Below are positions 21,584 through 61,253 of a stretch of 64,000 nucleotides of DNA, piece after piece; position 1 is the first letter of the stretch; every line of letters begins with the position of its first letter. The notes under the pieces were generated by a model. It was not told where the DNA came from. It searched no databases and saw nothing but the letters and a program-made list of their open reading frames with translations. The position numbers and the translations under genes are program-made. The stretch covers positions 6,319,541 to 6,383,540 of the forward strand of contig OX459103.1 in NCBI GenBank assembly GCA_949775045.1. The letters are read 5' to 3'. This stretch comes from Metridium senile. Lineage: Eukaryota; Cnidaria; Anthozoa; Actiniaria; Metridiidae.

Positions 21584-23325
21584 ACTAGTATTAGGTAGTA
21601 CCTATTTTGGTTTATGTATGCATGTTTAAATGTGTGCGCTATATCAAAACTATTAGGTAGTAACAATTTTGGTTTTATTTCATGGTTTAAATGTGTGCGC
21701 TATATCAAAACTATTAGGTAGTAACAATTTTGGTTTTATTTCATGGTTTAAATGTGTGCGCTATATCAAAACTATTAGGTAGTAACAATTTTGATTTTAT
21801 TTCATGGTTTAAATGTGTGCGCTATATCAAAACTATTAGGTAGTAACAATTTTGATTTTATTTCATGGTTTAAATGTGTGCGCTATATCAAAACTATTAG
21901 GTAGTAACAATTTTGATTTTATTTCATGGTTTAAATGTGTGCGCTATATCAAAACTATTAGGTAGTAACAATTTTGATTTTATTTCATGGTTTAAATGTG
22001 TGCGCTATATCAAAACTATTAGGTAGTAACAATTTTGATTTTATTTCATGGTTTAAATGTGTGCGCTATATCAAAACTATTAGGTAGTAACAATTTTGAT
22101 TTTATTTCATGGTTTAAATGTGTGCGCTATATCAAAACTATTAGGTAGTAACAATTTTGATTTTATTTCATGGTTTAAATGTGTGCGCTATATCAAAACT
22201 ATTAGGTAGTAACAATTTTGATTTTATTTCATGGTTTAAATGTGTGCGCTATATCAAAACTATTAGGTAGTAACAATTTTGATTTTATTTCATGGTTTAA
22301 ATGTTTGCACTCTAACAAAACTATTAGGTAGTAACAATTTTGATTTTATTTCATGGTTTAAATGTTTGCACTCTAACAAAACTATTAGGTAGTAACAATT
22401 TTGATTTTATTTCATGGTTTAAATGTTTGCACTCTAACAAAACTATTAGGTAGTAACATTTTTGATTTTATTTCATGGTTTAAATGTTTGCACTCTAACA
22501 AAACTATTAGGTAGTAACAATTTTGATTTTATTTCATGGTTTAAATGTTTGCACTCTAACAAAACTATTAGGTAGTAACAATTTTGATTTTATTTCATGG
22601 TTTAAATGTTTGCACTCTAACAAAACTATTAGGTAGTAACATTTTTGATTTTATTTCATGGTTTAAATGTTTGCACTCTAACAAAACTATTAGGTAGTAA
22701 CAATTTTGATTTTATTTCATGGTTTAAATGTTTGCACTCTATCCAAAACTATTAGGTAGTAACAATTTTGATTTTATTTCATGGTTTAAATGTTTGCACT
22801 CTAACAAAACTATTAGGTAGTAACAATTTTGATTTTATTTCATGGTTTAAATGTTTGCACTCTAACAAAACTATTAGGTAGTAACAATTTTGATTTTATT
22901 TCATGGTTTAAATGTTTGCACTCTAACAAAACTATTAGGTAGTAACAATTTTGATTTTATTTCATGGTTTAAATGTTTGCACTCTAACAAAACTATTAGG
23001 TAGTAACAATTTTGATTTTATTTCATGGTTTAAATGTTTGCACTCTAACAAAACTATTAGGTAGTAACAATTTTGATTTTATTTCATGGTTTAAATGTTT
23101 GCACTCTAACAAAACTATTAGGTAGTAACATTTTTGATTTTATTTCATGGTTTAAATGTTTGCACTCTAACAAAACTATTAGGTAGTAACAATTTTGATT
23201 TTATTTCATGGTTTAAATGTTTGCACTCTATCCAAACTATTAGGTAGTAACAATTTTGATTTTATGTCATGGTTTAAAAACTTTGCGCTACATCAAAACT
23301 ATTAGCTAGTATCTATTTTGGTTTC
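21584..23325. repeat. 61-bp minisatellite, about 28 copies (intronic)
   Basis: The unit contains AAAACTATTAGGTAGTAACA, TTTTGATTTTATTTCATGG and TTTAAATG. The first ten or so copies have TGTGCGCTATATC; from about 22300 the others have TTTGCACTCTAAC. The two subfamilies form separate blocks, with near-identical copies within each. Confidence 0.97.
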
Positions 23326-27402: not shown

Positions 27403-28807
27403 TTTTTACTGAACGTTTCACCCAGATTAGAGCTCATCAAAATATGCTCATCTTAAATAAAGTCCATCAATGAGCCAAGTATGATAAAAAATGACGATTT
27501 TTGATGGTTTGTCTATCTTGGGCTATAACCCACCAAAATCGTCATTTTTGATCATTTATCATGGGCTATAACCAACCAAAATCGTTTTTTTATCATTTTT
27601 CATGGGCTATAACCAACCAAAATCGTCATTTTTGATCATTTTTCATGGGATATAACCCACCAAAATCGTCATTTTTGATCATTTTTCATGGGCTATAACC
27701 CACCAAAATCGTCATTTTTGATCATTTTTCATGGGCTATAACCAACCAAAATCGTCATTTTTGATCATTTTTCATGGGCTATAACCCACCAAAATCGTCA
27801 TTTTTTTCATTTTTCATGGGCTATAACCCACCAAAATCGTCATTTTTGATCATTTTTCATGGGCTATAATCCACCAAAATCGTCATTTTTGATCATTTTT
27901 CATGGGCTATAACCCACCAAAATCGTCATTTTTGATCATTTTTCATGGGCTATAACCCACCAAAATCGTCATTTTTGATCATTTTTCATGGGATATAACC
28001 CACCAAAATTGTCATTTTTGATCATTTTTCATGGGCTATAACCCACCAAAATCGTCATTTTTGATCATTTTTCATGGGCTATAACCCACCAAAATCGTCA
28101 TTTTTGATCATTTTTCATGGGATATAACCCACCAAAATTGTCATTTTTGATCATTTTTCATGGGCTATAACCCACCAAAATCGTCATTTTTGATCATTTT
28201 TCATGGGCTATAACCCACCAAAATCGTCATTTTTGATCATTTTTCATGGGCTATAACCAACCAAAATCGTCATTTTTGATCATTTTTCATGGGCTATAAC
28301 CCACCAAAATCGTCATTTTTGATCATTTTTCATGGGCTATAACCAACCAAAATCGTCATTTTTGATCATTTTTCATGGGCTATAACCAACCAAAATCGTC
28401 ATTTTTGATCATTTTTCATGGGATATAACCCACCAAAATCGTCATTTTTGATCATTTTTCATGGGCTATAACCCACCAAAATCGTCATTTTTGATCATTT
28501 TTCATGGGCTATAACCCACCAAAATCGTCATTTTTGATCATTTTTCATGGGCTATAACCAACCAAAATCGTCATTTTTGATCATTTTTCATGGGCTATAA
28601 CCCACCAAAATCGTCATTTTTGATCATTTTTCATGGGCTATAACCCACTAAAATCGTCATTTTTGATCATTTTTCATGGGCTATAACCCACCAAAATCGT
28701 CATTTTTGATCATTTTTCATGGGCTATAACCAACCAAAATCGTCATTTTTGATCATTTTTCATGGGCTATAACCAACCAAAAATCTGGGTGAAACGTTCA
28801 GTAAAAA
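27403..28807. mobile_element. 43-bp minisatellite enclosed by 26-bp inverted repeats
   Basis: TTTTTACTGAACGTTTCACC (start of the 27403-27428 repeat) is perfectly mirrored at 28782-28807. Between them are about 29 copies of a 43-bp unit (27520-28778) with CATGGGCTATAACCCACC and AAAATCGTCATTTTTGATC. Copies alternate between AACCCACC and AACCAACC. A transposon-borne satellite is inferred. Confidence 0.75.
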
Positions 28808-33749: not shown

Positions 33750-34645
33750 TTATTCCCCTGTACCGTATTGGACAACAGCCCAAGATTCCAGCTCCCCAAG
33801 CACATTACTACGAATATCAAAAATATTATAGTTTTCATCCTCTTCTCTGGCATAATCCCTCCTTCCTTCCTCCTCGCTTTCATCTTGTTCAGTTTCATCT
33901 TCCAATTCAATCTCATGGCGGAATGGCATTTTGTAGGGTTCGTCTTGTTCTGGTACTTCTGGGGCACTTCTCTCTTGGAATTCACCTTCGTCAAAGTCCC
34001 TAGACCTTGCCATCCTCTTTGCTGTGATTTTGCTATTGTCCCGGATGGTTAGAGTCCAGACTCCTTCAGGATTCTCACCCCAGAATTGGACGGACATGAA
34101 TGGCCAGTTTTTTATTCCATCTTTGGATTCATCATGTGGTCGGATTGAAAGCAGATTGCTGTTCGTTTTAGAAGGCGATTTGATGGCAATACTCAAAACC
34201 CCGCGTTGTCGATGTCTGAGGGTCATCACAACCTGAATGTGCTCCAACTTGGTGATGTGGTTTGCAGTTCCCTTGCAGCCATCGGACTTGAGCGTCAAAG
34301 TGATTTGTCCATCTCTTTTAAGAGGCTCCTTTCGTGTTATCTCTCCCTGGACGGTGCAATTCCTCTGTGGTGGGACCGTTTTCCACTTCTTTGCTGCCTT
34401 GATCAGAGCTGGAGCATAAAGCAGGCCAAACCCGAACTGTGAGCTGACATCGAATCCTGCTGCGTTAGTCTTCCATAGACCCTTGACTTTATCCAAGTCG
34501 TCCCTTTTCGCTGTTTTTGTGATGAGATGTTGTAGATCCCGCCATGTAAGGTCCTTGTTGGCTTGTAGTACGAGTGCAAAGACGCCTACTGCTAGTGGAG
34601 CGGCTGCTGAGGTACCGCCAAAATGCTCAACACAGCCATCTACAC
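33750..34645 (-). CDS. Proprotein convertase, exon 3: catalytic Ser, P domain with acidic insertion, C-terminus
   Basis: Last coding exon, 896 nt, acceptor TAAATTACAG|GT, coding residues 399-696 and ending in TAA. It carries the nucleophile in GGTSAAAP (S411) and LTWRDLQHL. The P domain runs from about 489, with the landmarks CTVQGEIT, HITKLEHIQ, RGVLSIAIKSPS and GVWTLTIRD. The terminal P-domain strand (SWAVVQYGTGE) is separated from WTLTIRD by residues about 604-677. That segment is rich in Glu and Asp and carries basic clusters (KRMARSR, GRR). Relatives normally have a short loop there. The protein stops right after the P domain, with no Cys-rich region or transmembrane helix, so a soluble secreted or granule enzyme is inferred. 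Summed exon lengths are 2091 nt, exactly 697 codons. Confidence 0.94.
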
Positions 34646-35932: not shown

Positions 35933-36157
35933 CACTTCCAGTAGTCACCAGCGGTTTCGATCCACCTTCGGAATCATCACCACTATATACCACAGCCATA
36001 GTGGCAGCACACTTCTCATCGTAATATGTTGCACTTCCATGAGGTCCAACGGAGCCAATAGCAATTGTGTAGATACTAGACGTATAGCCATCACACCCAC
36101 AGTCATCCTTGAAAGCACCTCCATTACCACTTGCCCATACATAGATGGAACCCTTGC
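35933..36157 (-). CDS. Proprotein convertase, exon 2: oxyanion Asn region
   Basis: A 225-nt middle exon coding residues 324-398 and joined in phase 1 on both sides. The acceptor is TTAATTCACAG|GC and the donor is GGAAGTG|GTAAGTGG. The split Gly codon at each junction gives an uninterrupted family sequence. The exon reads through [12 protein letters not shown], with the oxyanion-hole Asn at N335, 101 residues after the catalytic His, as in furin-like enzymes. It then passes [12 protein letters not shown] and the [12 protein letters not shown] segment. The intron-2 side of the exon lies 40 bases from a 32-bp perfect inverted repeat. Confidence 0.95.
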
Positions 36158-44611: not shown

Positions 44612-45581
44612 CCTTTCTTCCTTCCTTTGCGCCACGTTCGAGGGTTTTTTTCCCAAGGGTAGAGGGCCCAGCCATAACTTGACCATTATCCTTAGGACCC
44701 CAGGATGCACTATATATGTCGATATAGTCAGGACGCAGACCAAAGGCTTCTGACTCAGTAATTCCTGTAACTTTTCCGTCCAGCATCCGAACGGCTCCGA
44801 TTTTAACATCAGGAGCAAGGCCCACACCACAGAAGTTGTTATTCGCCGCAGAAGCTATCTCTCCAGAGCATTTTGTGCCGTGATATTGGTCATATTTGTC
44901 TCTAGGCTGTGGATCTGGATCATTATCGTTTACATCTCTACTCGCTTTAAGGTCAAAGTTAGGCTTGAGGTCCAGGTTTCTGTGGTCTAAACCATCGTCC
45001 ATGACAGTCACTACTACTCCTTTCCCAGTGTAGCCCATTTTCCAGGCTTTCAGGATCCCCATATCTCGGCCTTTAAGTCTTTTATCGGCGAGTTGACCGA
45101 CGTTGTTTATGTACCATTGCTTGGGAAACATGGGATCGTTGTAGTACTTTAAACCGGAATTATCTGCTTTCTTGTCATTCTCTGGATATTCAAACAAGTC
45201 ACCATCACTATAACTATCATATCTTGACCTCTTTTCAAGTGTGAGCTCTCTTTGTTGCTCGTGCCATTTTATATTCGGATGTTCTTCCAACTTTGGGTAA
45301 GGAATATCGCCTCGTTTGTCATCGGCATGATTTTCCCTGCGAATAAGCTGAAAATGTCTAGGTAAACTGCTGATTCGACCACCATAATCATATCCATGTA
45401 ATTTAGCGATATCTCGCGCTAACTTCTCATCATCTTGGTCTAGTTCCACAGCGAAGAATTTCGTCAAACTTCCTTCGTGATCTTGTTTGTGCTTAGCGTC
45501 TAGATCCTCTATGGATTGTACTTTCGCTATCAATACAAACACTAAAGCAAATACTGCACATACAGAGTACAAGAGCCTCAT
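44612..45581 (-). CDS. Proprotein convertase (kexin/furin type), exon 1: signal peptide, prodomain, first half of S8 domain
   Basis: First coding exon of a secretory-pathway, calcium-dependent serine endoprotease that cleaves precursors after basic residues. It encodes residues 1-323 plus one base. Residues 1-23 form a hydrophobic signal peptide. The prodomain runs from about 42 to 120 and contains FFAVELD, GYDYGGRI and SLPRHF. It ends at the auto-processing site EKRSR (116-120). The catalytic domain follows, with the Asp of MDDGLDH at D195 and the His of YHGTKCSGE at H234. The D-to-H spacing of 39 is close to that of the family. The exon ends AAAGG|GTAAGA (phase 1), and the following intron is T-rich with short GAAATAATGGGA-like repeats. 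The start is the only ATG ahead of a signal peptide. Orthology (furin, PC1, PC5, PC7) is not decided here. N335 in exon 2 argues against PC2, which has Asp at that position. Confidence 0.95.
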
Positions 45582-48559: not shown

Positions 48560-49290
48560 ATCCAGTTATTGAAAAAGGTGCATGGTTACAATTCCTTTTC
48601 GTCTTGGAATGGCCTATCGCCTTGGACAACCTTTTAGACAGGTTTAATTTATGCACATAATTCCTTTTTCTTGGAATGGCCAATCTCCTTGAACAACCTT
48701 TTTGAAATAGGTGTATGCCCATAATCCCTTTCCGTCTTGGAATGGCCTATCGCCTTGGACAACCTTTTTGAAATAGGTGTATGCCCATAATCCCTTTCCG
48801 TCTTGGAATGGCCTATCGCCTTGGACAACCTTTTTGGAATATGTGAATGCCCATAATCCCTTTCCGTCTTGGAATGGCCTATCGCCTTGGACAACCTTTT
48901 TGAAATAGGTGTATGCCCATAATTCCTTCCCGTCTTGGAATGGCCTATCGCCTTGGACAACCTTTTTGAAATAGGTTTATGCCCATAATTGTCTTGGAAT
49001 AGCCAATCGCCTTGGACAACCTTTTTGAAACATGTTTATGCCCATAACTCCTTTCTGTCTTAGAATGGTCTATCGCCTTTGACAACCTCTTTGAAATAGG
49101 TTTGTGTCAATAATTCCTTTCCGTCTAGTAGGAATGAACTAAAACGTTTTTGGAATATGTGAATGCCCATAATACCTTTCTGTTTAGGAATGAACTATCA
49201 CCTTGGACAACCATTTTGAAATATGTGTACGCCCATAATTCCTTTCCGACTTGGAATGACCAATCTCCTTAAACAATCTTACTCGTATGC
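48560..49290. repeat. 66-bp tandem array, about 10 copies
   Basis: The unit contains CTTGGAATGGCCTATCGCC, TTGGACAACCTTTTTGAAAT and AGGTGTATGCCCATAAT. 66 is a multiple of three, so a 22-residue repeat frame stays open on the minus strand. Outer copies are more diverged. Confidence 0.92.
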
Positions 49291-49310: not shown

Positions 49311-49498
49311 AGGGGCGGATCCAGAAATTTGACAAGGGGGGTGAGCTTTGATATCTTTTTGGCGGATAACGGCAGACACAAGAGCGCAAAGATCGTAATG
49401 TGCCCTATTTTCTTTGCTAAAACGGGACTTTACTGCAAAAAAAAGGAGGGTGAAACGTCACCCAGTTCACTCCCCCCCCCCCCCCTCCGTCTGCCCCT
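49311..49498. mobile_element. MITE, AGGGGCGGATCCAGAAATTT end
   Basis: The right end is a C-run then CCGTCTGCCCCT, an imperfect complement. It is inserted in the decayed end of the 66-bp array. Confidence 0.65.
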
Positions 49499-49749: not shown

Positions 49750-50528
49750 AGTCTTTATAGTATAACCCATCGTCATTGGCGTCCTTCTTTCGAGAGTATT
49801 CGTTTTATCATGCAGAAAATTTGAAAAAAATGGGAAAAAATGATGAAAATCGTTATATAAATTTTTAATCATGTCTTTAGTTTGTCAGTAATATTCTTTT
49901 ATAATTATTAATAAATATATATTTTATGTTAATTATCAGTCATTCAAAAAAAGCTCTATCTATCAATTAATTAAATTTGGCAATTTTATACATTTTATAT
50001 CTAAAAAAATATGAATGAAAACAATAGTATTTATCTTATAAAACTCATTGTGTACTATATGAGCAGAATGTTTTGAGAATGACTGCAAGAATTTCCTTTG
50101 TTCATACAATATATATTTTGTATTGAAAAATTATCTTTTCCTCCGTTTCACGAAGTAAAAATACTAGAAATTTCTGAGTAATTTTTAAAGGAAATTAGTT
50201 CAAAAACAATATATTTGACAGCTATAACTGTAACAAATGAATATTCATATAAAGCTTTTGACATTTCGACAAAAAACACGTTTTGTCTTAACCACTTTCA
50301 ATATAAACAGTTTCTCAGTTCTTAACAAGAAATAAATGAACTTAAACTGAAATGTAAACTGCTTTTCTATAAGCGATAAAATGCAGTCCAATTGTCGGGA
50401 GTATTCTGTTATGTGGTATTAGACCATAACTCTAGCTCAGCATAATCTAGAACGGTTTATCTTAGTCAGCGAAAAAAGTGTCACTTGTTTTTTCTTGTTC
50501 AAGCTTTTACCGCCACGAAGCTAGGACT
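49750..50528. other. AT-rich, nothing identified
   Basis: Downstream of the orphan prodomain stop. No catalytic-domain homology in any minus frame and no nearby AATAAA. Confidence 0.6.
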
Positions 50529-50936
50529 TCAATCTTTACGTATTTGCTTTTCTCTTTGAAGAACTGCCTGTCTTTCAGCCCATTTTACTCTGGGATGTTT
50601 CTCAAGAACTCGTTTATAATCGCGCTTGCTTGATTCACTCTCATCGTCTTGCTCGCCTTTGATGAGCGCTTTCTCGTCAAGTTCTCGACGAGTAAACATG
50701 AAATGGCGAGGAAGAGAGCCTATTCTGCCTCCATAATTATAGCCATAGCGTTTAGCAATGTCTTTAGCGACTTGTTCATCTTCTGTGTCAAGTTCTACGG
50801 CCCAGGTGTTTGTGTACTCGCTTTCTCCTTCTCGTAAGTTTGAATTTCTTGCTACGTCATGGCAAAAACAAACATTTTTGCTGACGAAAACTGCGAAGAC
50901 TCCGACTAAAGCGAAATATAACAATCTAAACTGCAT
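50529..50936 (-). CDS. Secreted stand-alone convertase prodomain (orphan propeptide)
   Basis: A 135-residue single-exon frame with a proper ATG. Residues 1-19 are a hydrophobic signal peptide. The rest aligns with the prodomain of the neighbouring convertase: TWAVELDTEDEQ, AKDIAKRYGYNYGGRI, SLPRHF, then LEKHPRVKWAERQ and REKQIRKD followed by TGA. The stop falls two residues after the Arg that corresponds to the maturation site (KRSR in the full enzyme). Nothing resembling the catalytic domain follows in any minus frame before the next gene. Prodomains of this family fold their enzyme and inhibit it when free, so a trans-acting inhibitor or chaperone is inferred. The alternative is the 5' remnant of a truncated duplicate, or an alternative first exon, because a GTAAAG donor-like site at 50539 (exon end 50540, phase 1) precedes the stop. 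Homology is secure; function is not. Confidence 0.85.
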   Translation of the reverse strand: MQFRLLYFALVGVFAVFVSKNVCFCHDVARNSNLREGESEYTNTWAVELDTEDEQVAKDIAKRYGYNYGGRIGSLPRHFMFTRRELDEKALIKGEQDDESESSKRDYKRVLEKHPRVKWAERQAVLQREKQIRKD

Positions 50937-51105: not shown

Positions 51106-51385
51106 TCGTTGCTCAGGTGGCTATCAATATGACGATATACGTTTTTTTTTGTTATTCATTGTATGGCGCCTTTTATTCTATATTTATATTATTTGTTATC
51201 TTTTACATATATATTGTTGCGTATTATTTCTTGCGTTTTATTTTGTGATGTTTGGCTTAGTTTTTTAAGGTTTTGCTCTGCTCTGCTATTTTGAAATGTT
51301 TATGCACATAACTCCGATAAAACGAGTTGAAAATTGAAGTACAATAGAGAAAGATGCAAGGAGAATGGGGCGAGAGAGGGAGAGA

Positions 51386-51781
51386 GGGACAGAGGGACAG
51401 AGGGACAGAGGGACAGAGGGACAGAGGGAGAGAAGAGAGAAGGAGCTAGAGAGGGACAGAGGGACAGAGGGACAGAGGGACAGAGGGACAGAGGGACAGA
51501 GGGACAGAGGGACAGAGGGACAGAGGGACAGAGGGACAGAGGGACAGAGGGACAGAGGGACAGAGGGACAGAGGGACAGAGGGACAGAGGGACAGAGGGA
51601 CAGAGGGACAGAGGGACAGAGGGACAGAGGGACAGAGGGACAGAGGGACAGAGGGACAGAGGGACAGAGGGACAGAGGGACAGAGGGACAGAGGGACAGA
51701 GGGACAGAGGGACAGAGGGACAGAGGGACAGAGGGACAGAGGGACAGAGGGACAGAGGGACAGAGGGACAGAGGGACAGAG
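51386..51781. repeat. GGGACAGA octanucleotide satellite
   Basis: Five copies, an interruption at 51429-51451, then about 41 perfect copies. Because 8 is not a multiple of 3, all forward frames stay open. Confidence 0.97.
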
Positions 51782-52228
51782 GTTATTCTCTCGCCATTAA
51801 TAGTGCCAGATGATAGTACCAGTGTTAATTTGTCATTATTTCTGCAATTTTGTTCTTATTTTTTATTCTTATTCAGAACTGATGTAATATTTTGAACACA
51901 TGCAACTCCTAGGAATTCTAATAACGGTAAATACGTAAGCTAATTAGTATCTGGTACTATTAGTACCAAAGTCGCTAAATCGGAAAACCCTATTTACAGT
52001 CCAGTAAATGTTATTTAATTACCTTGCACATTAACTTATTACATGCCAAAATTAATGTTTACCAAATTGACCTTGAAACAGATCAAGCCTATGAATGGCT
52101 GGTACAACAATCAGTCTTTTTTAAATTCCAAAAGAGTGCAAAAACATCTTAATAATTATACATTGTATTAATTATCTAGAATCTGATTGGCTAAGAGCAT
52201 GCAAATCATTTTCAAATCAGACAATCTA
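51782..52228. other. No gene seen
   Basis: AT-rich. An inverted pair AATCTGATTGGCTAAGAGCA / AATTGGCCAATCTGTAGG brackets the next element. Confidence 0.45.
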
Positions 52229-55072: not shown

Positions 55073-55922
55073 ACACAGCGTTCAAACGACCACGCATGCG
55101 CGAAAAAAAGTAAAATAATCCATCACACAAATCTGGCATTCGTACGGACTATATAAATAACTATAGAGTCTACAACTTTCATCGCTTTTTTCTTAAAATG
55201 TAAATATAAATAAAAAAGTGTAAAATTATTAGCTTTACAATATAACGAAGGTTGTGTACACGGGACTTCAAGCTTATATATATATATATTCAAGGAGTGC
55301 CTTATAAATCGACTTCAAACAATGTAGTCCGAAATTCCTAATGTTTACATTGGCAAATTAAATAGACGCCTTGCAATCTCGTTCCCAGCGCACGCGTAAC
55401 TTTTGGCCTGCGACAAAGAACTTTTTTTTTTTCGTTCTTTGTCGCGGGCCAAAAGTTACGCGGGCGCTGGGAACGAGATTGCCCGCCATTTTGCCACGCA
55501 TGCGTAGTCGCTTGACCGTTGTGTTGCTTGTGGGTGGAAAATTCCGAGCGGAAAAGTGCTGTGAATTAGGTTGACCTGGCTATAGATCATCCTGGAATAA
55601 CACAGCGGTCAAACAACTACGCATGCGTGTCAAAATTTTCACAGCGGCAAATTTGACATTTTAAACTTTAGGAATTTTGGACGACAGTGTTTGAAGTCGA
55701 TTTATAAGAAATTCCCTGAATATATAAGCTTGAAGTTTCGTGTATATAACATTTGTTCAATTGTAAAGTTACCATGAGTATATACTTGTATTTTTCTCTA
55801 TATTTTGAGAAAACAGCGATGAAAGTCGTACACTCCATCGTTTTAATAAAGTCTGTATTTGTGTGAGTGTCATTTAACTTGTTTTTTTCGCGCATGCGTA
55901 GTCGTTTGACCGCTGTGTTCAC
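55073..55922. mobile_element. Large compound foldback, CAGCGGTCAAACGACTACGC ends
   Basis: Arms 55073-55360 and 55640-55922 are inverted copies (AACTTTCATCGCTTTTTTCT / GAGAAAACAGCGATGAAAGT and others). The tip motif ACTACGCATGCG with CACAGCGGTCAAAC occurs four times, twice at the edges and twice in the centre. Confidence 0.85.
55374..55481. mobile_element. 108-bp nested foldback, CAATCTCGTTCCCAGCGC ends
   Basis: GTAACTTTTGGCCTGCGACA is mirrored by TGTCGCGGGCCAAAAGTTAC, ending in GCGCTGGGAACGAGATTG. The tips match the 57-bp element at 12322-12379. Confidence 0.88.
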
Positions 55923-55949
55923 TGGAATATATTAGGAAATTACACTTAC

Positions 55950-56030
55950 TGACACAGGTGTAAGACCCGATGGTATTTTGACAAACTTGACTTGGGGAAC
56001 ATTTATTTTCACCAAGGCATTCGTCAATAT
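55950..56030 (-). CDS. EGF-like exon C (N-terminal two-thirds of an EGF domain)
   Basis: An 81-nt, phase 1-1 exon, acceptor TATTCACTCAG|AT, donor TGTGTCA|GTAAGT. It reads IDECLGENKCSPSQVCQN then TIGSYTCVS and stops after the fourth cysteine. The last two cysteines must come from another exon or are missing. The donor sits only 28 bases from the edge of a large foldback element (55073-55922). I could not find the completing exon between 55.9 and 52 kb. Confidence 0.82.
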
Positions 56031-56103
56031 CTGAGTGAATAATATGTAAAAATTTTCCATTCAATTGACCAATCATTATAAGTTAGCTAAATAATAACTA
56101 AAT

Positions 56104-56851: not shown

Positions 56852-58450
56852 TACAATGATGGTGATGGTAGTGATGATAACGATGATGGTGATAATAGTG
56901 ATGATAACGATGATGGTGATGATAGTGATGATAACGATGATAGTGATGATAACGATGATAGTGATGATAACGATGATGGTGATGATGGTGATAATGGTGA
57001 TGATAGTGATGATAACGATGATAGTGATGATAACGATGATGGTGATGATAGTGATGATAGTGATGATATAGTGATGATTGTGATGATAGTGATGATTGTG
57101 ATGATAGTGATGATAGTGATGATAGTGATGATAGTGATGATAGTGATGATAGTGATGATAGTGATGATAGTGATGATAGTGATGATAGTGATGATAGTGA
57201 TGATTGTGATGATAGTGATGATAGTGATGATAGTGATGATAGTGATGATAGTGATGATAGTGATGATAGTGATGATAGTGATGATAGTGATGATAGTGAT
57301 GATTGTGATGATAGTGATGATTGTGATGATAGTGATGATTGTGATGATAGTGACGATAGTGAAGATGGTGATGATAGTGATGATAATGATGATAGTGATG
57401 ATAGTGATGATTGTGATGATAGTGATGATTGTGATGATAGTGATGATTGTGATGATAGTGACGATAGTGAAGATGGTGATGATAGTGATGATAGTGATGA
57501 TAGTGATGATTGTGATGATAGTGATGATTGTGATGATAATGATGATAGTGATGATAGTGATGATTGTGATGATAGTGACGATAGTGACGATGGTGATGAT
57601 AGTGATGATAGTGATGATAGTGATGATAGTGATGATAGTGATGATAGTGATGATAGTGATGATAGTGATGATAGTGATGATAGTGATGATAGTGATGATT
57701 GTGATGATAGTGATGATAGTGATGATAGTGATGATAGTGATGATAGTGATGATTGTGATGATAGTGATGATTGTGATGATAATGATGATAGTGATGATAG
57801 TGATGATTGTGATGATAGTGATGATATAGTGATGATAGTGATGATAGTGATGATAGTGATGATAGTGAAGATGGTGATGATAGTGATGATTGTGATGATA
57901 GTGATGATAGTGATGATGGTGATGATAGTGATGATGGTGATGATGGTGATGATAGTGATGATAGTGATGATAGTGATGATAGTGATGATTGTGATGATAG
58001 TGATGATAGTGATGATAGTGATGATAGTGATGATTGTGATGATAGTGATGATTGTGATGATAATGATGATAGTGATGATAGTGATGATAGTGATGATTGT
58101 GATGATAGTGATGATAGTGATGATAGTGATGATAGTGATGATAGTGATGATAGTGATGATAGTGATGATAGTGATGATAGTGATGATAGTGATGATAGTG
58201 ATGATAGTGATGATAGTGATGATAGTGATGATAGTGATGATAGTGATGATAGTGATGATAGTGATGATAGTGATGATAGTGACGATAGTGATGATAGTGA
58301 CGATAGTGAAGATGGTGATGATAGTGATGATGGTGAAGATGGTGATGATAGTGATGATAGTGATGATAGTGATGATAGTGATGATAGTGATGATAGTGAA
58401 GATGGTGATGATAGTGATGATTGTGATGATAGTGATGATAGTGATAGTAA
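56852..58450. repeat. GATGATAGT nonamer satellite, 1.6 kb
   Basis: About 175 units of 9 bp with GATGATTGT, GATGATGGT and GAAGATGGT variants, in the intron between EGF exons A and B. Long frames on both strands are by-products. Confidence 0.97.
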
Positions 58451-58906: not shown

Positions 58907-58967
58907 GAGCTGCATGTAACTAAATGAATTGTTTATTCTATTTTCTATATTTATTAGTGCTCACTAC

Positions 58968-59078
58968 CTGTGCATTTAAGGCCATTCCAAGCAAACCCTC
59001 TTGAGCAATAACACGAAAAACAACCAATAGTATTCAGACACATGTGGCAAAGATTTGGATCTAAGCATTCATCGATAT
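58968..59078 (-). CDS. EGF-like exon A (calcium-binding type, atypical cysteines)
   Basis: A 111-nt exon, acceptor TATTCTTTAG|AT, donor TGCACAG|GTAGTG, phase 1 on both sides as is usual for modular EGF exons. It starts with the calcium-binding signature IDEC and contains CLNTIG and GFAWNGLKC. It has seven cysteines, and only two residues lie between the second and third. Canonical domains have six cysteines and longer spacing there. It belongs to an extracellular or membrane multi-EGF protein with exons B and C, in the order A-B-C on the minus strand. No earlier exon is identified to 64 kb. Confidence 0.8.
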
Positions 59079-59616
59079 CTAAAGAATACACACAAGAAAC
59101 TATTGGATTCATCTTTCGTATTATTGACTGCCATTTTGGGCTTCCTGTGGCGATATTACACAGGAAGCCCAAATGACCACTACATAAGTCACAAATGCGT
59201 GAATTAAGAATGCCTATGAAATAGTGATGCATTATGCCTATGAAATAAAATAAATTTAAAATTGATAATTTGTGATAGTTCTTAGTTAGTGACTATTATA
59301 AGTCACTACCTAGGAAAGACAAGTAAATGGTTTTTGAATGGTCACTGGTTAACAACGAAAAGATAGCAACAATTTGGATTTTATTTCCTGGTTTTAGTTT
59401 ACTTTAGTTTAGTTTGTTTACACTTACAAAAATAATACTTATAAAATATATATATTTAATTATACTTAATAAATATATATATTTTAGTCTATATCAACAC
59501 AACAACACTTTGAAAGTATACAGTCAATGTCATTAATAATAACATCGTCCACAAAACAAACATTAATAGATCGTGACACCACGTGACTTTGCTCGAAATA
59601 CTAGCATTAATAGTCT
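59079..59616. other. No further EGF exon seen
   Basis: A short inverted pair around GGGCTTCCTGTG / CACAGGAAGCCC (59136-59172). Otherwise AT-rich. Confidence 0.5.
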
Positions 59617-59980: not shown

Positions 59981-61253
59981 TATCACAGTATCACAGTATC
60001 ACAGTATCACAGTATCACAGTACCACAGTACCACAGTATCACAGTATCACAGTATCACAGTATCACAGTATCACAGTATCACAGTATCACAGTATCACAG
60101 TATCACAGTATCACAGTATCACAGTATCACAGTATCACAGTATCACAGTATCACAGTATCACAGTATCACAGTATCACAGTATCACAGTATCACAGTATC
60201 ACAGTATCACAGTATCACAGTATCACAGTATCACAGTACCACAGTACCACAGTACCACAGTACCACAGTACCACAGTACCACAGTACCACAGTACCACAG
60301 TACCACAGTACCACAGTACCACAGTACCACAGTACCACAGTACCACAGTACCACAGTACCACAGTACCACAGTACCACAGTACCACAGTACCACAGTACC
60401 ACAGTACCACAGTACCACAGTACCACAGTACCACAGTATCACAGTACCAATGTACCATAGTATCACAGTACCATAGTATCACAGTACCACAGTGCCAATG
60501 TACCATAGTATCACAGTACCACAGTACCACAGTACCACAGTACCACAGTACCACAGTACCACAGTACCACAGTACCACAGTACCACAGTATCACAGCACC
60601 ACAGTATCATAGTACCACAGTACCAAAGTACCACAGTACCAAAGTACCAAAGTACCATAGTATCACAGTACCACAGTATCACAGTACCATAGTATCACAG
60701 TATCACAGTATCACAGTATCACAGTATCACAGTATCACAGTACCACAGTATCACAGTATCACAGTACCACAGCACCATAGTATCACAGTACCACAGTATC
60801 ACAGTACCACAGTACCATAGTATCACAGTGCCATAGTATCACAGTACCATAGTATCACAGTACCACAGTACCACAGTATCACTGTACCACAGTACCATAG
60901 TATCACAGTATCACAGTATCACAGTACCACGGTACCATAGTATCACAGTATCACAGTACCAAAGTACCATAGTATCATAGTACCACAGTATCACAGTACC
61001 ACAGTACCACAGTATCACAGTACCACAGTATCACAGTATCACAGTACCACAGTACCACAGTATCACAGTACCATAGTATCACAGTACCATAGTATCACAG
61101 TACCAAAGTACCATAGTATCATAGTACCACAGTACCATAGTATCACAGTATTACAGTACATCACAGTACCATAGTATCACAGTATATTGCAGTACCAAAG
61201 TACCATAGCACCATAGTATCACAGTATTACAGTACCAATCGTATCACGGTACT
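59981..61253. repeat. ACAGTATC/ACAGTACC octanucleotide satellite, 1.27 kb
   Basis: About 158 units. A TATC block (to about 60235) is followed by a pure TACC block (to about 60435), then a mixed block with TACCATAG variants. All frames are open on both strands through most of it. Confidence 0.98.

Follow-up and report, generated by a model that had tools for sequence, protein, structure and literature searches.

The window, i.e., the whole stretch of 64,000 nucleotides from the sea anemone Metridium senile analysed here, carries beside a complete proprotein convertase a short frame encoding a convertase prodomain on its own. The comparison of sequences strongly supports the view that this frame is a gene in its own right, and neither a pseudogene nor a stray first exon, because nine homologues share its end point, its linkage to a convertase is probable in Actinostola, the prodomain-only proteins are monophyletic and their divergence is about as low as that of the enzyme. 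With respect to function, the chances are slightly better than even that the encoded protein is secreted and works in trans as a free prodomain, most likely a persistent and hard-to-cut convertase inhibitor, which would have arisen by exon duplication and would operate by docking on the enzyme. The features of the gene are the following:

50529..50936, minus strand: prodomain-only gene, a single open frame of 135 codons plus TGA (50531-50529), with its ATG at 50936-50934
50865..50936, minus strand: signal-peptide-like hydrophobic N-terminus, residues ~1-24 (hydropathy in all ten aligned prodomain-only sequences; helix 3-20 in the model)
50547..50807, minus strand: predicted S8_pro-domain fold, residues 44-130 (Pfam; in the model, the best Foldseek match is the PC1/3 prodomain complexed with furin)
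50616..50681, minus strand: acidic insert, residues 86-107, at the position of the secondary cleavage loop of convertases (alignment and composition)
50544..50555, minus strand: R128-E129-K130-Q131, equivalent to P4-P1 of the maturation site with the P1 Arg replaced by Gln, invariant in 10/10 sequences
50532..50543, minus strand: four-residue tail I-R-K-D followed by the stop (tail of 4-6 residues in 10/10 sequences)

The first-pass annotation had pointed to an open frame at these positions with its strand unnamed; the 135 codons are indeed open on the minus strand, and the plus strand is interrupted by stops. The motifs quoted as signs of a prodomain (TWAVELD, YGYNYGGRI, SLPRHF and HPRVKWAERQ) all occur in the translation, and the claim that the prodomain is full is borne out by the Pfam family S8_pro-domain (PF16470), which matches residues 44-130 with an E-value of 3.9e-18 and a score of 66.3 bits for a curated cut-off of 25.5. 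Judged on this profile, the match is not due to chance; the Actinostola prodomain-only homologue scores 68.2 bits against the same family. A search of the PDB sequences (E up to 0.1) returned only PC1/3 prodomains, three sequences in all (E 1.7e-6 to 3.4e-6), and in Pfam, with E up to 0.01, the window protein had no match to the MEROPS I9 inhibitor family and PF16470 was the only family reported. Catalytic and P domains are absent from the 135-residue protein. The signal peptide announced in the same annotation is putative, as read from the hydropathy of the N-terminus in 10/10 sequences, and the protein is presumably secreted. On the minus strand between the stop and 49400, the poly(A) signal AATAAA does not occur, the only variants being ATTAAA at 49869 and 49512, and AGTAAA at 49434.

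The C-terminal end differs from its earlier description as a stop located two residues after the maturation Arg. A maturation Arg is lacking from the protein, whose P1 residue is Gln-131; the stop comes four residues later, after I-R-K-D, the Arg previously taken for the maturation residue being R133, beyond P1. In the alignment, the stretch from the invariant Trp to P1 is gap-free over 13 residues between prodomain-only proteins and convertases, and reads W-A-E-R-Q-A-V-L-Q-R-E-K-Q in the window protein and W-H-E-Q-Q-R-E-L-T-L-E-K-R in the neighbouring convertase. The furin-type site of the window protein thus keeps P4 Arg and P2 Lys and has P1 changed to Gln, each of these three residues occurring in 10/10 prodomain-only sequences, one of which (P0001) is a 99% identical twin of the window protein. 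Among convertases (the window's protein plus the best 120 of 3944 listed), P1 consists of R in 96, K in 7 and E in 1 of the 104 sequences that display the motif, which is missing from 17/121; the sole E (P0034) corresponds to a spurious motif. The P1 change is consistent with a prodomain that is not cut free. At P4, compared among the 89 convertases listed under a stricter motif, the Arg of the prodomain-only proteins contrasts with a Leu in the neighbouring convertase and in its orthologues from Actinostola and Nematostella; the prodomain-only tail is therefore not a plain copy of that of the neighbour, and another convertase may be the target.

The second departure from a usual prodomain concerns the secondary cleavage loop. 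When the sequences are aligned, one of the ten prodomain-only proteins versus all 23 convertases has a [KR]R or RxxR motif in this loop, which covers window residues 85-107; an unaligned count over a stretch of 25 residues (first 60 of 121 convertases, 53 of them with the motif used for the P1 count) gives 2/10 versus 51/53. As aligned, the usual loop is replaced in the prodomain-only proteins by an acidic insert, with 8 D/E for 4 K/R in window residues 86-107. Basic pairs nevertheless flank the loop, [KR]R at 83-84 in six of the ten sequences and K108-R109 in all ten, so that the count of prodomain-only sequences rises to 6/10 when residues 82-84 are added and to 10/10 when K108-R109 is added; the only one of these ten with a basic motif inside the loop is the window allele (K104-R105), its twin P0001 having K-H. 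Owing to these flanking pairs and to K104-R105, resistance to cleavage is not assured. Residue 105 (50624-50622, minus strand), for which the window has Arg and the 99% identical P0001 has His, is likely polymorphic and makes or removes the K-R pair of the loop.

A structural model built from 45 aligned sequences has a mean pLDDT of 77.2, with residues 41-80 in blocks of 93-98. Its five best PDB matches by Foldseek (E 1.3e-5 to 1.6e-4) are chains of the PC1/3 prodomain, from furin complexes or the isolated domain, with TM-scores of 0.75-0.84 when normalized by target and 0.44-0.50 by query. A first model from 10 sequences (pLDDT 61.8) had no match under E 0.001, and its top ranks were occupied by the same PC1/3 chains. 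The window protein is accordingly predicted to carry the proprotein-convertase prodomain fold. According to excerpts of a recent work on the PC1/3 prodomain (PMC12405487), the residues touching furin include Ser63, Gln102, P4 Arg107 and P2 Lys109; all four are kept, as Ser74, Gln123, Arg128 and Lys130, in 10/10 prodomain-only sequences, and the exception among the contacts is P1 Arg110, which is replaced. Position His72, the pH sensor of PC1/3, aligns with Arg83 of the window protein. The residue at this position of the neighbouring convertase is likewise an Arg, namely Arg81 (45341-45339, minus strand).

The convertase gene announced downstream on the same strand is indeed complete: it starts at 45581, 4.9 kb from the prodomain-only frame, with its catalytic residues in place, and encodes a product of 696 amino acids in three exons:

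44612..45581, minus strand: exon 1, signal peptide, prodomain (maturation site E-K-R|S), catalytic Asp and His
35933..36157, minus strand: exon 2, oxyanion Asn (WASGNGG)
33750..34645, minus strand: exon 3, catalytic Ser (GGTSAAAP), P domain, acidic C-terminus and stop TAA (33752-33750)

Its catalytic Asp, His and Ser and its oxyanion Asn are assigned by motif. The prodomain core of the window prodomain-only protein is identical to that of this neighbour at 43/79 positions, and in each of the three anemones compared this enzyme has a prodomain of its own (in Nematostella, the record starts inside the prodomain). A tblastn of ten related proteins against the window (E 0.05) gave no match beyond the three convertase exons and the prodomain frame. 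In a tree of catalytic domains, for which 12/37 sequences lacking the anchor motif were taken from their N-terminus, the neighbour falls in a half (100/100) together with Hydractinia, Acropora and Nematostella proteins and vertebrate "PC3-like" proteins, its nearest group being moderately supported (88/86). A nematocyst-specific clade of cnidarian convertases, NSP6, is described in part of PMC6134521. The P domain of the neighbour contains R-G-V at residues 546-548 (34205-34197, minus strand). Furin has R-G-D at the matching position of its P domain.

Homologues of the prodomain-only protein were collected by a search with the window protein (8 homologues among 16 candidates) and by a profile search (9 among 1550). 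Both searches are limited to proteins whose length is 0.55-1.75 times that of the query and leave full-length convertases outside, so that the shortness of all nine matches arises partly by construction; their common end point does not. The nine proteins (seven from "lgn" contigs, one from jgi and one, QZH41_007998, from Actinostola) measure 128-144 amino acids and terminate 4-6 residues after the conserved P1 Gln, and 42 columns are invariant across the ten prodomain-only sequences. In Actinostola, the prodomain-only gene is annotated as a separate protein of 140 amino acids, by homology and de novo prediction, and the best match to the window convertase is QZH41_020664 (697 amino acids, 68%). 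The locus-tag numbers of these two genes are not adjacent. Each of them lies on a scaffold of 174,977 bases, in an assembly comprising 1596 scaffolds with an N50 of 383 kb and genes predicted by homology and de novo, as stated in the part of PMC10803348 available; given these figures, two scaffolds of identical length are unlikely, and the prodomain-only gene and the convertase are probably linked in Actinostola too. Between the window and Actinostola, the prodomain-only cores share 67/90 identical residues (74.4%), the convertase prodomains 62/79 (78.5%) and the remainder of the convertases 343/467 (73.4%). An unconstrained fragment would not keep pace with the enzyme in this manner, which suggests that the prodomain-only frame is under constraint.

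The gene is proposed to have originated when the first exon of a cnidarian proprotein convertase, which codes for the prodomain, was duplicated, the signal peptide and the prodomain alone being kept. Two prodomain trees (32 and 28 sequences, 82 and 80 columns), built from a selection in which 34/44 sequences have the motif, gather the nine prodomain-only sequences retained in one clade (support 97/95 and 99/96), sister to three anemone convertases including that of Nematostella (97/88 and 97/86). Both trees omit the near copy P0001 and P0011, which has no true prodomain, and the second also omits P0023, P0025, P0089 and P0097 because of their long branches. An alternative grouping of the anemone convertases with P0018, P0020 and P0021, without the prodomain-only clade, was not rejected (p 0.053). 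Neither homologue search returned a prodomain-only protein from Nematostella, though the database holds Nematostella convertases; the gene may have been lost, unannotated or diverged there, or the clade may be misplaced by the tree. An origin after the split from Nematostella, represented by a topology uniting the prodomain-only proteins with the window and Actinostola convertases and leaving Nematostella outside, is disfavoured (AU p 0.026, from about 80 columns and for a group named after the tree had been seen).

As regards the mechanism, the secreted protein would dock on a convertase in the same way as the enzyme's own prodomain, with its globular part on the rim of the cleft and the C-terminal R-E-K-Q lying over the non-primed subsites. 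Furin discards its prodomain by three successive cuts, at P1, at a secondary site and at a tertiary site, which is believed to keep the enzyme from being re-inhibited (PMC2662429, in part). According to excerpts of PMC12405487, PC1/3 prodomains engineered to carry mutated secondary sites are resistant to furin, which they inhibit at 0.04-1.5 nM. With a Gln at P1 and the usual secondary loop missing, the anemone protein should not readily be cut and discarded by the enzyme; inside the secretory pathway, or at whatever site the enzyme is stored, it could serve in trans as a lasting inhibitor or brake. The docking surface being kept while the P1 Arg and the usual loop are gone, binding without ready clearance might be expected, which argues for a persistent brake. 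Binding, inhibition, resistance to cleavage and the target itself are all put forward here by inference. The remaining basic pairs, the P4 Leu of the neighbour and the failure of both homologue searches to return a Nematostella prodomain-only protein run against the inhibitor. So do the contacts known for PC1/3: since the P1 Arg makes substrate-like contacts in the PC1/3-furin complex (PMC12405487, in part), its loss should weaken binding at the active site, and the acidic loop stands in opposition to Arg78 in the secondary loop of PC1/3, which adds affinity for furin according to the same excerpts. The proposal of the first-pass annotation, a gene-encoded trans-acting regulator of the neighbouring enzyme, stands with regard to the separate gene; action in trans is the best reading of the sequences, and the neighbour as target is just one option.

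These same departures from a canonical prodomain (the lost P1 Arg, the acidic loop and a P4 unlike that of the neighbour) would also suit a neofunctionalised secreted protein which has kept the prodomain fold and no longer acts on convertases; this deserves attention but appears unlikely, as the counterparts of the PC1/3-furin contacts, Ser74, Gln123, P4 Arg and P2 Lys, are invariant in 10/10 sequences and the gene stays beside a convertase. It is rather doubtful that the free prodomain serves as a trans-acting folding helper which templates the catalytic domain of a convertase, its uncut tail making it reusable and inhibition being a side effect. Prodomains of this family are intramolecular chaperones, as reported in parts of PMC12405487 and PMC6993865, the fold is kept in the model and the gene is linked to a convertase, but the neighbouring enzyme has its own prodomain in three anemones and no obvious need of such help, and a KDEL-like ending was not seen by eye in the ten prodomain-only C-termini.

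Still another possibility is that a spliced convertase transcript uses the frame as its first exon, or as an alternative one, and that the stop results from reading through into an intron. The neighbour does pack its signal peptide, its prodomain and the start of its catalytic domain into one exon, and a weak GT occurs near the end of the frame, with a better one (score 1.0) past the stop. According to a simple weight matrix built in this analysis, however, scores are -3.1 for the GT near the end and -1.6 for the best GT within the frame, versus 5.2 and 5.8 for the donors of the convertase; the ten related proteins used in tblastn detected no catalytic pieces outside its three exons; all nine homologues end 4-6 residues after the P1 Gln, a regularity hardly expected from intronic read-through; and the Actinostola annotation, by homology and prediction, is that of a separate protein of 140 amino acids. 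Splicing past the TGA into catalytic exons, envisaged in the first-pass annotation, is judged unlikely on the donor scores, the tblastn result and the common end point, and the exon hypothesis as a whole is highly improbable. A decaying duplicate, to which a partial convertase copy adjoining a convertase might point, is equally hard to credit, in view of a frame open in nine homologues (a weak argument alone, since protein databases list only open frames), a core nearly as conserved as the enzyme and the constancy of the P1 Gln across a clade comprising nine distinct sequences.

For a secreted prodomain acting in trans as an inhibitor, the closest precedent is, by analogy, SUB1-ProM of Plasmodium, a stand-alone propeptide-like protein which inhibits the neighbour-encoded SUB1, as described in part of PMC6993865. 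Both share a prodomain fold, a conserved gene located beside subtilase genes in the same orientation and, presumably for the anemone protein, a secreted compartment, but SUB1-ProM concerns a protist subtilase, resembles the mimicked propeptide at a low level and has a tail of variable length (PMC6993865, in part), whereas the anemone case involves an animal kexin/furin-type convertase, a clear homology and an invariant R-E-K-Q tail, with inhibition proposed. The same source reports, in the part available, that the propeptide tail of Plasmodium SUB1 is not essential for inhibition and that SUB1-ProM inhibits though its modelled tail leaves the groove unfilled. It also mentions other stand-alone propeptide-like proteins, e.g., the yeast peptidase B inhibitor, POIA1 from Pleurotus and SPI-1 from Arabidopsis, which belong to MEROPS I9, and MIC5 from Toxoplasma (PMC6993865, in part). 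All of them are small, adopt a subtilase-prodomain fold and do not derive from the cleavage of a larger enzyme, but they belong to another sequence family and none is an animal convertase prodomain, the window protein matching only PF16470.

Gene-encoded regulators acting in trans on convertases, like the role proposed here, comprise proSAAS, 7B2 and the serpin Spn4A, which are not known to be homologous to prodomains. Foldseek also returned weak fold matches to the prodomain of PCSK9 (2w2n_P, E 0.012; 2p4e_P, E 0.048). This prodomain has a Gln at P1 and stays bound to its enzyme; it is made as part of PCSK9 and not from a separate gene. The engineered PC1/3 prodomains resemble the anemone protein in being free convertase prodomains with a changed multibasic secondary site; they are man-made, with the secondary site (and His72) changed and P1 Arg110 kept (PMC12405487, in part), whereas the natural protein has a changed P1 and a longer acidic loop.

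Fungi, plants and apicomplexans are known, from the part of PMC6993865 available, to possess stand-alone subtilase prodomains; none from the animal furin/PC family was found among the matches listed from the open-licence PMC literature (titles and abstract openings). The anemone gene could tentatively be regarded as encoding a natural cleavage-resistant inhibitor derived, before the split from Nematostella, from a convertase cut down to its prodomain, with the secondary loop replaced and P1 fixed as Gln, and serving as a linked brake, possibly for a cnidarian-specific (e.g., nematocyst) convertase; it would then be the first case known in animals of a convertase prodomain encoded on its own, although the probability of this full scenario falls somewhat short of even. 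A conserved prodomain with its P1 Arg changed to Gln and an altered loop would represent the natural counterpart of the furin inhibitors engineered in 2025 (PMC12405487, in part), and the anemone case offers a direct test of whether such a prodomain yields a stable and selective convertase inhibitor, and of which convertase it serves.

A 66/125-bp minisatellite occupies 48569-49270, between the prodomain-only gene and the convertase, a 43-bp satellite (27519-28782, 29.5 copies, 96% matches) lies about 5 kb beyond the last convertase exon, and a 61-bp tandem array extends over 21589-23324 (28.4 copies, 97% matches). On the minus strand, open frames matching EGF_CA (calcium-binding EGF) in Pfam at 58957-59292 (E 1.2e-6) and 55873-56082 (E 1.4e-8) probably belong, as exons, to a further gene located upstream of the prodomain-only one on that strand. 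Arrays of 8-9 bp units, AGAGGGAC at 51375-51782 (50.6 copies), ATGATAGTG at 56856-58445 (176 copies) and CACAGTAC at 59984-61237 (156 copies), yield long spurious open frames in several reading frames.
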